Source of the DNA: Frankiaceae bacterium
GTDB lineage: Bacteria > Actinomycetota > Actinomycetes > BP-191
Length of the DNA: 64,000 nucleotides
Assembly (NCBI GenBank): GCA_030840645.1
Contig: JAVEEC010000042.1
Span: 62,001-126,000 of the forward strand
Direction: 5' to 3'
In this document: piece after piece, positions 7,798 to 64,000 of the stretch
Layout of the letters: every line of letters begins with the position of its first letter
How positions within the stretch are numbered: position 1 is the stretch's first letter
Translations under genes and position numbers: made by a program
Notes under the pieces: generated by a model
The model's input: the letters and a program-made list of their open reading frames with translations, nothing else
What the model was told of the DNA's origin: nothing
The model's database searches: none

Positions 7798-7804
7798 GGT
7801 GACT

Positions 7805-7899
7805 CCGAAGTTGTTGAGGTAGGGGCAGAGCGAATCGTACCGTACAACTTCGGAAGTTGTTGAGGTGAGGCCCGATCGAATTGAACAGTACAACTTCGG
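7805..7899. repeat. Tandem palindromic operator-like repeats upstream of the Fic gene
   Basis: Two diverged ~46-base direct repeats (read on the minus strand) each begin CGAAGTTGTAC and end ACCTCAACAACTTC. At their junction ACAACTTCGGAAGTTGT (7844-7860) forms an 8-base inverted repeat around one central base. GTACAACTTCGG occurs at 7842-7853 and 7888-7899, and the inverted CCGAAGTTGTTGAGGT at 7805-7820. The region is AT-richer than its surroundings. It looks like a multi-site operator, probably for the Fic protein's own HTH. Confidence 0.6.
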
Positions 7900-40125: not shown

Positions 40126-41424
40126 ATGGCACTGACCGGGCGGCTCGCCGTCCTCGCCGCCGTCGTGGCCGGGTCGTTCCTGGCCGTGCCCGGCGTCGAC
40201 CGCCGCGCGTTCTGGCTGGCCAACGCCGCCCTCCTCGCGCTCGCCGCGCTCGACCTCGCGCTCGCGGCGAGCGTCCGGCGGCTGGCGCTCGCCCGCTCCG
40301 GCGCGACGTCGGTCCGGCTCGGCGAGGCGGCCGTCGTCCTGCTCACCGTCGCCAACGGCTCAGGCCGCACCGCGCGGCTGTCGATCCGCGACGCCTGGCC
40401 GCCGTCCGCGGGCGCGACGCCGCGCGTCCACCGCGTCCGCGTCCCCGGCGGCGAACGCCGCCGCCTCACGACGGAGCTGCTCCCCACCCGCCGCGGCGAC
40501 CGGCGGCCGGAACGCGTCACCGTGCGTTCGGCCGGCCCGCTCGGCCTCGCCGCGCGGCAGGGCCGCCACGTCGCGCCGTGGCAGGTGCGGGTGCTGCCGC
40601 CGTTCACGTCGCGGAAGTTCCTCCCCGAACGCCTCAACCGGCTGCGCCAGCTCGACGGCGCGGTGCTGGTCCGCGGCCGCGGGCAGGGCACGGAGTTCGA
40701 CTCGCTGCGCGAGTACGTCGGCGGCGACGACGTACGCTCCATCGACTGGCGCGCAACGGCTCGGCGGGACACCGTCGTCGTCCGCACCTGGCGGCCCGAG
40801 CGCGACCGCCGCGTCGTCATCGTCCTCGACACCGGGCGTACGTCCGCGGGCCGCGTCGGCGACACGCCGCGCCTCGACCACGCGCTCGACGCCGCGCTGC
40901 TGCTGGCCGCGCTCGCGTCGCGCGCCGGGGACCAGGTCGAGCTGCTCGCGTACGACCGGGTCCAGCGCGCCCGCGTCTCCGGCGGCTCGCGCGCCGACGT
41001 CCTTCCGCGGCTGGTCAACGCGATGGCGACGCTCGAGCCGGTCCTGCTCGAAGCCGACCACCAGGGCATCGTCGCCGCGGTGCTGCGCCGCGTCCGGCGG
41101 CGGGCGCTGGTCGTGCTGTTCACCGAGCTGAACACCGCCGTCGTCGAGGAGGGCCTGCTGCCCAACCTCGGCCCGCTCACGTCGCGGCACACCGTCGTCG
41201 TCGCGTCGGTCGCGGACCCGCGCGTCGGCGAGCTGCTGCACGGCCGCGGCTCGGCCCGCGCGGTCTACGGAGCCGCCGCCGCCGAGCGCGCGACCGCGGA
41301 ACGCCGCCGCCTCGTCGCGCTGCTGCGCCGCCGCGGCGTCGAGGTGGTCGACGCGGCGCCGGAGTCGTTCGCGCCGTCCGTCGCCGACGCGTACCTCGCG
41401 TTGAAGGCCGAGGGCCGGCTCTAG
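40126..41424 (+). CDS. DUF58-domain (VWA-like) membrane protein
   Basis: 432 residues: two N-terminal hydrophobic helices (about 7-25 and 30-48), a beta-sandwich, then the DUF58 core GTEFDSLREYVGGDDVRSIDWRATARR and a VWA-like fold (VVIVLDTGRTSAG). It is a likely client of the adjacent MoxR ATPase. The stop codon TAG (41422-41424) is formed by the first bases of a palindromic repeat element, so the original C-terminus may have been altered by it. SpoIIM and RDD genes, its usual next neighbours, are found 10 kb away. Confidence 0.9.
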   Translation: MALTGRLAVLAAVVAGSFLAVPGVDRRAFWLANAALLALAALDLALAASVRRLALARSGATSVRLGEAAVVLLTVANGSGRTARLSIRDAWPPSAGATPRVHRVRVPGGERRRLTTELLPTRRGDRRPERVTVRSAGPLGLAARQGRHVAPWQVRVLPPFTSRKFLPERLNRLRQLDGAVLVRGRGQGTEFDSLREYVGGDDVRSIDWRATARRDTVVVRTWRPERDRRVVIVLDTGRTSAGRVGDTPRLDHALDAALLLAALASRAGDQVELLAYDRVQRARVSGGSRADVLPRLVNAMATLEPVLLEADHQGIVAAVLRRVRRRALVVLFTELNTAVVEEGLLPNLGPLTSRHTVVVASVADPRVGELLHGRGSARAVYGAAAAERATAERRRLVALLRRRGVEVVDAAPESFAPSVADAYLALKAEGRL

Positions 41425-41585
41425 GGCGTGTCTCCCAATCCGCTGACCTGCTGCGCGACGCCCAGCACGGCGCCTCGCGGCGTTGTCGTCGGCGCCGAGA
41501 GCGCTGCTCTCGACCCCTCCTCCGCCTGGCGATGCACCGCCCTGGACGCCGCTCGCGACGATCGCGGATTGAGAGACGCGCCCTA
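41422..41585. repeat. Palindromic repeat element, copy 1 (164 bp)
   Basis: It begins TAGGGCGTGTCTCCCAATCC and ends with the near-perfect reverse complement (GCGGATTGAGAGACGCGCCCTA); 18 of 20 terminal bases pair. Inside are a 7-base-arm palindrome (CGAGAGC-GCT-GCTCTCG) and GGCGCC repeats. Both ends form the stop codons of the convergent flanking genes (TAG for DUF58, TAG for the lipase). A second, shorter copy in opposite orientation is at 63185-63305. There is no coding capacity. It looks like a MITE- or REP-like non-autonomous element that may also act as a two-way terminator. Confidence 0.8.
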
Positions 41586-61917: not shown

Positions 61918-63015
61918 TCATTCAGCCAGCCGCTGCTTGAGCTGCACGATCGGCGCGATGACCGACGGGTCGACCCCGAGCAGGATGGCGAGGTACGTCG
62001 TCGTGAAGTCGACGGCCGCGACGAGCGACGCGAGCCGCGCGATCGGCGAGGCGCCCTCGGCGAGCACCTCGTCGAAGCCGATGCCGCGTTCGCGCGCCAG
62101 CTCCTGGCAGGCCGTGACGCGGCGCGCGACGGACGGCTGCTCCTCGGCGTCGCGGAGGAACAGCACCCGGATCCGGTCCGCCGCGTCCGGGTCGTCGAAC
62201 GGCACGACCTGGTTGTGGTTGGCCTCGGGCAGGACGCCCCACGTGGCGGGGCGCTTGGCGTTCTCGTTGAACTGGCAGGCGGTGCGGTACGCGGCGACGC
62301 CCGCGAGGGGCGACGTGCCCCACACGACGGGCAGCGGCTCGGCGAACGCGAGCGCGAGCGCCTTCGCGGGGTTGAGGAACGACTCCTTGGCGGCCTTGTA
62401 CCGCTCGGTCAGCACGTCGAGCAGGTCGGCGGTCGCGTCCAGCTCCTCGCGCGCGACGCGGCAGACGCCGAGCCCGTCGCCGAGGACGAGCAGCGGGACC
62501 GACAGCGCCCAGAGGCTGGCCCGCGGCAGGCGGCCGCCCGGCACGGGGACGTGCGCGCCGCGCCCGCGGGCGCCGAGGTCGGCGAGCGGCGAGGACTCGG
62601 CGCCGACGGTGACGACGCGCGCCCCGCGGCGGACCGCCTCCTCCGCGGCGGACAGCGTCTCCTCGGTCCGGCCGGAGCAGGACACGGCGACGACGACGTC
62701 GGCCGGGCCGACCCAGCCGGGCAGGCCGTAGCCGCGGTGGGTGAGAACGGGGGCCGGCGCGCCGAGCCCGGCGACGGCGCCGAGCACGTCGCCGGCGATG
62801 CCCGAGCCGCCCATGCCGGCGACGACGACCGCGCGCGGCCGGCCGCCGTCGGTGACCCGGCCGAGGTCGGCCTCGTACGCCGTCGTCACGGCCTCGCGGA
62901 ACTGCGCGGGCGCGCCCGCGACGGCGCGGAGCATGCCGTCCGGGTCGGCGGCCTCGATGCCCTCCGGGTCGTCGAGGAGGTCCTCGCGCGCGGCGGCGTC
63001 GTGCTGCGGGGTCAC
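61918..63015 (-). CDS. Bifunctional phosphoglucose/phosphomannose isomerase
   Basis: 365 residues of the archaeal/actinobacterial bifunctional PGI/PMI type. The SIS domain has MGGSGIAGDVLGA and SCSGRTEETLSAAEE, and the C-terminal half has EANHNQVVPFDD with catalytic Glu and His. It interconverts glucose-6-P or mannose-6-P with fructose-6-P. The GTG at 63015 overlaps the Trm112 stop (GTGA). With manB it makes mannose-1-phosphate for GDP-mannose and wall mannans. Confidence 0.9.
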   Translation of the reverse strand: MTPQHDAAAREDLLDDPEGIEAADPDGMLRAVAGAPAQFREAVTTAYEADLGRVTDGGRPRAVVVAGMGGSGIAGDVLGAVAGLGAPAPVLTHRGYGLPGWVGPADVVVAVSCSGRTEETLSAAEEAVRRGARVVTVGAESSPLADLGARGRGAHVPVPGGRLPRASLWALSVPLLVLGDGLGVCRVAREELDATADLLDVLTERYKAAKESFLNPAKALALAFAEPLPVVWGTSPLAGVAAYRTACQFNENAKRPATWGVLPEANHNQVVPFDDPDAADRIRVLFLRDAEEQPSVARRVTACQELARERGIGFDEVLAEGASPIARLASLVAAVDFTTTYLAILLGVDPSVIAPIVQLKQRLAE

Positions 63016-63182
63016 CGGGTCTGGACCGCCTCGTCGACCAGCAGGACGGGGATGTCGTCGCGCACCGGGTAGCGCAGGCCGCAGCCGGTGCAGTCGAGCG
63101 CCGACTCGGCGTCGTTGACCTCCAACGGCGCGTGGCAGGCCGGGCAGGCGAGGATCTCCAGCAGGGCGGGGTCGAGGTTCAC
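63012..63182 (-). CDS. Trm112-like zinc-finger protein
   Basis: A 56-residue protein missed by any length filter of 60. GTG at 63182. It is the bacterial Trm112/UPF0434 fold: a zinc knuckle ACPACHAPL and DCTGCGLRYPV supply four Cys, and RDDIPVLLVDEAV closes the sheet. It may activate a methyltransferase or support the neighbouring isomerase. Its ribosome-binding site (AGGAG) is in a palindromic repeat element. The stop overlaps the isomerase start, so the two are cotranslated. Confidence 0.9.
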   Translation of the reverse strand: MNLDPALLEILACPACHAPLEVNDAESALDCTGCGLRYPVRDDIPVLLVDEAVQTR

Positions 63183-63184
63183 GC

Positions 63185-63305
63185 GGGCGTGTCTCCTAGT
63201 CCGTGGCCGTCGCGAGCGACGTCTGGTGGGGTGGATCGCAGGGCGGAGGAGGAACGGACAGCAGCGCGCGTCGCGCAGCAGGCCGACGGGCTAGGAGACA
63301 CGCCC
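63185..63305. repeat. Palindromic repeat element, copy 2 (121 bp)
   Basis: GGGCGTGTCTCCTAGTCCG at the start and its near-perfect inverse CGGGCTAGGAGACACGCCC at the end (18 of 19 pair). The reverse complement aligns with the copy at 41422-41585 along its whole length, apart from a ~40-base deletion. Shared blocks include CTGCTGCGCGACGC, TCCTCCTCCGCC and GCTCGCGACG. Its right end codes the last residues and stop of manB; its left end holds the Trm112 ribosome-binding site. Confidence 0.8.
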
Positions 63306-64000
63306 ATTGCCTCTCACTAGGGCGAGCACGTCGTCGCGGACGCGCACCATGGTCGGCTCGTCGACGGCCTCGGCGTTGAGGCGCAGCAACGGCTCGGTGT
63401 TGGACGGCCGGAGGTTGAACCACCAGTCGGCCGCGTTGACGGTCAGGCCGTCGAGGTGGTCGATCTCGACGCCGTCGCGCGCGAGGTACGCCGCCTCGAC
63501 CCGCGCCATGGCGGCGAGCGGGTCGGCGACGGTGGAGTTGATCTCGCCGCTCGCCGCGTAGCGGTCGAACGGCTTCAGCAGCGCCGACAGCGGCGCGTCC
63601 TGCTGGCCGAGCTCGGCGAGGACGTGCAGCGCGGCGAGCATGCCGGAGTCGGCGCGCCAGAAGTCGCGGAAGTAGAAGTGCCCGCTGTGCTCGCCGCCGA
63701 AGATGGCGTTCGTCCGCGCCATCTCGGCCTTGATGAACGAGTGCCCGACGCGGGTGCGCACCGGCGTGCCGCCGTGCTCGCGGACCACCTCGGGGACGGT
63801 ACGCGAGCAGATCAGGTTGTGGATGACCGTCGCGCCCGGCTCGCGCCGCAGCTCGCGGACCGCGACCAGCGCGGTGATCGCGCTCGGCGAGACGACCGCG
63901 CCGCGCTCGTCCACGACGAAGCAGCGGTCCGCGTCGCCGTCGAACGCCAGCCCGAGGTCGGCGCCGGTGTCGAGCACGGCCTTCTGCAGGTCGACGAGGT
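63291..64000 (-). CDS. manB: Phosphomannomutase/phosphoglucomutase (3' part)
   Basis: 236 codons of a hexose-phosphate mutase whose 5' end lies beyond the right edge. Visible elements are the metal loop LAFDGDADRCFVVDE, the sugar-binding loop GEHSGHFYFRDFW and the phosphate-binding RPSNTEPLLRLNAEA. These are domains 3 and 4 of the phosphohexomutase fold. Product: mannose-1-phosphate, feeding GDP-mannose and thereby lipoarabinomannan-like glycans. The last residues GRVS and the TAG stop are coded by a repeat element, so the natural C-terminus may have been altered. Order manB-Trm112-PGI/PMI is standard in actinobacteria. Confidence 0.92.
   Translation of the reverse strand, partial: LVDLQKAVLDTGADLGLAFDGDADRCFVVDERGAVVSPSAITALVAVRELRREPGATVIHNLICSRTVPEVVREHGGTPVRTRVGHSFIKAEMARTNAIFGGEHSGHFYFRDFWRADSGMLAALHVLAELGQQDAPLSALLKPFDRYAASGEINSTVADPLAAMARVEAAYLARDGVEIDHLDGLTVNAADWWFNLRPSNTEPLLRLNAEAVDEPTMVRVRDDVLALVRGNGRVS

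Follow-up and report, generated by a model that had tools for sequence, protein, structure and literature searches.

The window analysed here, the whole stretch of 64,000 nucleotides, contains near one end two genes read from the minus strand, namely the C-terminal part of manB, a phosphomannomutase/phosphoglucomutase gene (63291..63998; PF02880, PF00408 and PF02879) that runs off the window, and downstream of it a gene for a Trm112p-like protein of 56 amino acids (63012..63182; Pfam PF03966, E = 1.5e-15). Their junction is split by a 121-bp repeat, copy 2 of the element described here, at 63185..63305 on the plus strand, which is the strand modelled as structured. Copy 1, a full element of 160 bp, lies at 41424..41583 on the minus strand between two convergent genes and matches covariance model R1 with 172.1 bits. 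Genes were called by a simple codon-usage score trained on the window, and the starts given are predictions of this score. The window also contains, at 7804-7895, a tandem 46-bp repeat whose two copies are 80% identical, start with TCnGAAGTTGTTGAGGT and have an AnAGTACAACT-like end.

Relative to the 160-bp family consensus, copy 2 lacks about 40 bp at the apex. Model R1, made from 41 other copies, matches it at 63181-63309, including 4 nt of flank on each side, with 74.2 bits and an E value of about 1e-15, which is beyond chance. The initial annotation had read the first bases of the element as the end of manB, and this reading holds: the frame closes as ...LVRGN-GRVS-stop, and the last four codons and the stop (GGG CGT GTC TCC TAG; 63305 to 63291, minus strand) lie wholly within the terminal stem of the element. 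The other arm of this stem carries AGGAG (63193..63197, minus strand), which is placed as had been annotated, 10 nt before the GTG of the Trm112-like gene (63182-63180, minus strand), and is its putative Shine-Dalgarno (SD) sequence.

The manB/Trm112 site is empty in two congeneric genomes, G001 and G002, whose manB orthologues are 81-83% identical. In these genomes manB ends with ...KGTP or RGTP and a TGA, the TGA overlaps the GTG of Trm112 (GTGA), and the ribosome-binding site of Trm112 sits within manB; in G002 an SD-like GAGAGGG lies inside manB, and the stretch immediately 5' of the GTG is GTGAGAGGGACGCC. The SD-like GAGAGG that corresponds to this stretch in the window (63310..63315, minus strand) has been shifted by about 120 bp by the element and lies about 127 nt away from the start of Trm112, and no SD besides the AGGAG of the element remains near the GTG. 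By inspection, the window without copy 2 would read GGC AAT GCG TGA, in frame and with a length equal to that in G002. A TA duplication is not visible at copy 2, which is flanked by CGC and ATT. Since the orthologues that lack the element differ in both the C-terminus and the ribosome-binding site, both are, by sequence comparison, new at copy 2 and were provided by it, in agreement with the earlier view that this copy was adopted as functional sequence.

At copy 1 the outcome is different. TA flanks the element on both sides, and these bases are host target sequence outside the element. The TAG stop of the DUF58 gene (41422..41424, plus strand) is composed of this TA and the first base of the element, G, and the lipase-like gene that converges on it ends with a TAG (41583..41585, minus strand) made of the other TA and the last base of the element, a C that is read as G on the minus strand. 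It had been proposed that the outermost bases of the element form both convergent stops; both codons indeed end in an element base, but their TA belongs to the host. The site is empty in G001 and G002, and the DUF58 orthologues of these genomes already end with ...GRL-TAG at the same codon. The stop thus existed beforehand, and on this comparison copy 1 landed in it and rebuilt the TAG with the protein unchanged. Comparison with orthologues therefore separates the manB C-terminus and the region upstream of Trm112, which differ, from the DUF58 C-terminus, which does not.

Both copies belong to a family with about 30 copies (about 26-34 places) in the same genome, where, with up to 3 mismatches allowed, the end motif TAGGGCGTGTCTCCCAATCCG matches 34 times and its reversed control not once. 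Several contigs of the genome terminate within copies, as is expected of a repeat that breaks the assembly. Canonical copies are 160 bp long and read GGGCGTGTCTCCCAATCCGC...GCGGATTGGGAGACACGCCC between CTA and TAG, with the TA duplicated on both sides; copy 2 and further divergent copies no longer have this duplication. Most copies measure 121-184 bp, and two versions in genome G017 (L254 814-1031 and L255 840-1057) have 218 bp, about 50 bp more than the others. The element is present in all three genomes of the order, and matches to R1 were found in 23 of the 98 genomes and 15 of the 63 genera sampled from the class, counts that are lower bounds owing to the stricter filters used. In a scan of a phylum sample with R1 the genome of the window was the sole match, and about 92 genomes of other classes yielded no element. 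Two copies, both at stop codons, are present in Pseudonocardia oroxyli, and partial matches occur on Streptomyces plasmids. The copies searched had no match among the covariance models of 4227 Rfam families, and a literature search returned no description of the family. A known structured RNA was accordingly rejected (HEARO had been considered). A cobalamin riboswitch (Rfam RF00174, above the gathering score) lies near an element of G002 at L179 695-764 on the minus strand.

An alignment of 41 copies from three species folds into a single long hairpin, in which compensatory changes support 47 of 58 pairs. Paired cells amount to 95.2%, as against 77.5% in shuffles and 31-51% with slid partners. 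Nearly all complete copies have a terminal stem of 20-24 bp with variable sequence, as expected of the terminal inverted repeats of a miniature inverted-repeat transposable element (MITE); the terminal 24 pairs are the most variable and are still complementary (for example GCCATGCCTCCC/GGGAGGCATGGC and GTGCCCCGTCCGG/CCGGACGGGGCAC), and the stem bears TCTCC/GGAGA. The core, GCAAGGCGGAGGAGG...CGACGACGACAACGC, keeps repeated GA/GA internal loops (tandem G.A mismatches), also across genera. Column identity is 0.90 in the core and 0.67-0.69 in the arms (0.81 and 0.65 across genera). On the modelled strand, G.U cells outnumber A.C cells by 179 to 28 and, for 50 copies belonging to other genera, by 225 to 43, and the structure is therefore strand-specific; as judged from the sequences, RNA and single-stranded DNA fit equally well.

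In a typical MITE the ends are better conserved than the interior; here the opposite holds. Together with the favoured strand and the loops kept across genera, this would suit an element whose main role is that of a functional structured RNA, or a single-stranded DNA structure, spreading and kept for its own activity, with its position at stops and starts being secondary. However, the orientation to the flanking genes is mixed (29 '--' and 15 '++' in the genus, 16 of each elsewhere), which argues against a fixed cis-acting RNA of the mRNA, and the absence of an Rfam match and of common insertion sites also weighs against this explanation. Congeneric genomes share almost no site among the copies compared, and no orthologous retained copy suitable for a selection test was found among them. 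We consider a primarily structural function to be doubtful. At the one locus pair shared between congeners (L138 in G000 and L146 105-270 in G001), the elements at the end of the orthologous gene point in opposite directions, which suggests independent insertions at one stop codon.

The combination of a short multicopy element too small to encode a transposase, a TA on both sides of the canonical copies, paired termini and sites that are empty in relatives leads us to conclude with considerable confidence that the repeat is a non-autonomous transposon (MITE) of actinobacteria, of which copy 1 was neutral and copy 2 split manB and Trm112. Either strand forms a very stable hairpin (-75 and -63 kcal/mol; z = -6.1 and -5.2), and of the 59 genus copies for which both neighbours were called, 13 are flanked by convergent genes, properties that would also be appropriate to a bidirectional transcription terminator between genes. 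Nevertheless, the hairpin has no U-tract, and no terminator-like site was detected at 63100-63400. Furthermore, 44 of the 59 copies have co-directional genes on either side, of which termination would silence the downstream one, and many of these pairs would overlap or abut (0-6 bp) if the element were removed. The suggestion that the element ends transcripts is not sustained at copy 2 either, as manB and Trm112 are co-directional, with no terminator signature and no promoter-like site found between them. A role as terminator is thus improbable.

Insertion occurs at TA, mostly within CTAG, and TA flanks were observed at 72 of 138 and 80 of 128 ends. In the genus, 48 of 61 complete copies have an end with a stop codon no more than 3 bp away, and seven have stops at both ends. 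The proposed insertion at gene ends therefore stands as a general tendency, the qualification being that copy 1 merely regenerated an existing DUF58 stop. TAG stops are common in the window (25 of the 62 called genes), so that the element meets many targets; at the genus loci they number 138 of 314, part of which may stem from the elements themselves. The agreement with stops and SD sequences might be a passive coincidence of a GC-rich, TA-targeting MITE, the SD being unused. Of the other non-coding CTAG sites of the genus, 36 of 66 are stops in any case, and the exact TA-G siting at stops (25 of 61 genus copies) shows no excess over this null. However, siting within 3 bp exceeds it (79% versus 55%, p = 8e-5), as it exceeds the null of non-coding TA in the genus (102 of 423, 24%; p = 4e-19), and in other genera 32 of 66 copies compare with 7 of 20 CTAG sites (p = 0.016). 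As siting within 3 bp goes beyond the CTAG null and exact siting stays at its level, target preference explains much, though not all, of the siting at stops.

The start codons bear on the same question. Among the outward-reading genes of the genus, 13 of 53 start 2 bp outside the element and 22 of 53 within 6 bp, and most of these starts have GGAG or AGGA in the last 15 bp of the element, that is, in its terminal arm. This clustering 2 bp outside the ends, and the fact that in copy 2 the ancestral GAGAGG is far removed and the GTG has no other SD nearby, are difficult to reconcile with coincidence alone, to which we assign only a minor share of the likelihood. At four further loci (L130, L131, L160 and L184) core genes, which we take to be cysN, pheT, nusA and nuoK, have their apparent SD in the ends of the element.

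The MITE interpretation offers a probable sequence of events. An imperfect hairpin of about 160 bp would insert at TA, preferably CTAG, and duplicate the TA. The first base of the element is G and its last is C, so that a TAG or TAA stop hit by an insertion would be rebuilt as TAG for a gene reading in from either side; insertion at gene ends would thus be close to neutral, and copies could accumulate there. The TCTCC/GGAGA of the terminal stem would at the same time present a ready SD to a gene starting just outside. At manB/Trm112, the apically deleted copy 2 would have split the GTGA stop/start, so that manB now stops at the internal TAG and Trm112 probably starts from the AGGAG of the element.

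Within the mRNA that spans manB and Trm112, the arm coding for GRVS and the stop (GGGCGUGUCUCCUAG) pairs exactly with the arm containing AGGAG (CUAGGAGACACGCCC), and the AGGAG is predicted to be fully paired with the stop-proximal arm in the free mRNA. The SD may thus be shut in the stem until a ribosome finishing manB occupies or opens the other arm, and coupling by overlap would have been replaced with coupling by a hairpin. The limited gain in accessibility in a crude model counts against such translational coupling: the unpaired probability of the SD rises only from 0.13 in free mRNA to 0.38 with a ribosome on the stop as the mean of 24 junctions, and from 0.00 to 0.20 for copy 2. A more far-reaching possibility, which we put forward tentatively and regard as unlikely, is that the whole family acts as a mobile translational-coupling cassette, with a stop upstream, an SD downstream and a linking stem, together with a conserved structured core serving an RNA or single-stranded DNA function of its own. 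If this were true, its spread through actinobacterial operons would repeatedly convert overlapping genes to hairpin-coupled genes. The MITE interpretation by itself explains how a mobile element can settle between packed operon genes without breakage, by offering a stop inward and a ribosome-binding site outward, and manB-Trm112 is a concrete, testable case in which transposition replaced the C-terminus of one gene together with the ribosome-binding site of its downstream neighbour.

Candidates for the transposase came from a Streptomyces-like genome, G039. It contains a 1.67-kb transposon with the ends TAGGGGGTGCCTGACAA and TTGTCAGACACCCCCTA and an IS5-family transposase (NF033580), and a 910-bp insertion sequence (IS) with TAGGTTCTGTCTGACAA ends and a transposase assigned to the IS5 family by similarity, both at CTAG. 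The IS5-family transposon ends of this genome, listed as TAGGGGGTGYCTGACAA and TAGGTTCTGTCTGACAA, resemble those of the element, which makes IS5-type transposases the best candidate movers on sequence grounds. For G039 an autonomous element with matching ends was found within the genome; for the genus of the window the search found none. The query used did not find the IS5_3 transposase in this genus, G041 or G009, and the pattern used did not find these ends in the IS5 homologues carried by two named Streptomyces plasmids. An IS630/Tc1-mariner mover was rejected, as the genome of the window has no match to DDE_3 (PF13358). The IS5-family transposon at L270 1032-2703 of G039 carries a class I SAM-dependent methyltransferase as a passenger gene, and the same transposase-methyltransferase pair is present on plasmids of Streptomyces anulatus and S. 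cyaneofuscatus.

The element resembles several known systems. ERIC (IRU, RU-1) of enterobacteria is a 127-bp intergenic imperfect palindrome with TA termini that is cotranscribed between genes and sometimes gives protein C-termini (PMC2229807, PMC2759123). The present element is likewise an intergenic imperfect palindrome with TA at its termini that supplies C-termini; however, no sequence or Rfam relation was seen, and here the end regenerates TAG and carries an SD, the G.A-rich core is kept and the terminal stem varies. Correia/NEMIS and RUP are, similarly, short non-autonomous elements with TA duplication and a long stem-loop, and as MITEs they have defined terminal repeats of 24 and 9 bp (PMC2229807), whereas here it is the interior that is conserved and the terminal stem that differs between copies. 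The TA duplication is also shared by IS630/Tc1-mariner elements and their MITEs, for which a CTAG preference has been reported (Tenzen and Ohtsubo, 1991, as cited in PMC2170065), but the genome of the window has no DDE_3 transposase and the ends of the element fit the IS5 examples instead. IS5-family elements (NF033580) of Streptomyces-like genomes have the common ends TAGG(N)4TGTCTGACAA and insert at CTAG, as at L270 and L286; unlike the present element, they encode a transposase, in one case also a SAM methyltransferase, and are without the hairpin core. The analysis thus uncovers a class-wide family of structured elements that is akin to ERIC and Correia and does not form a separate category.
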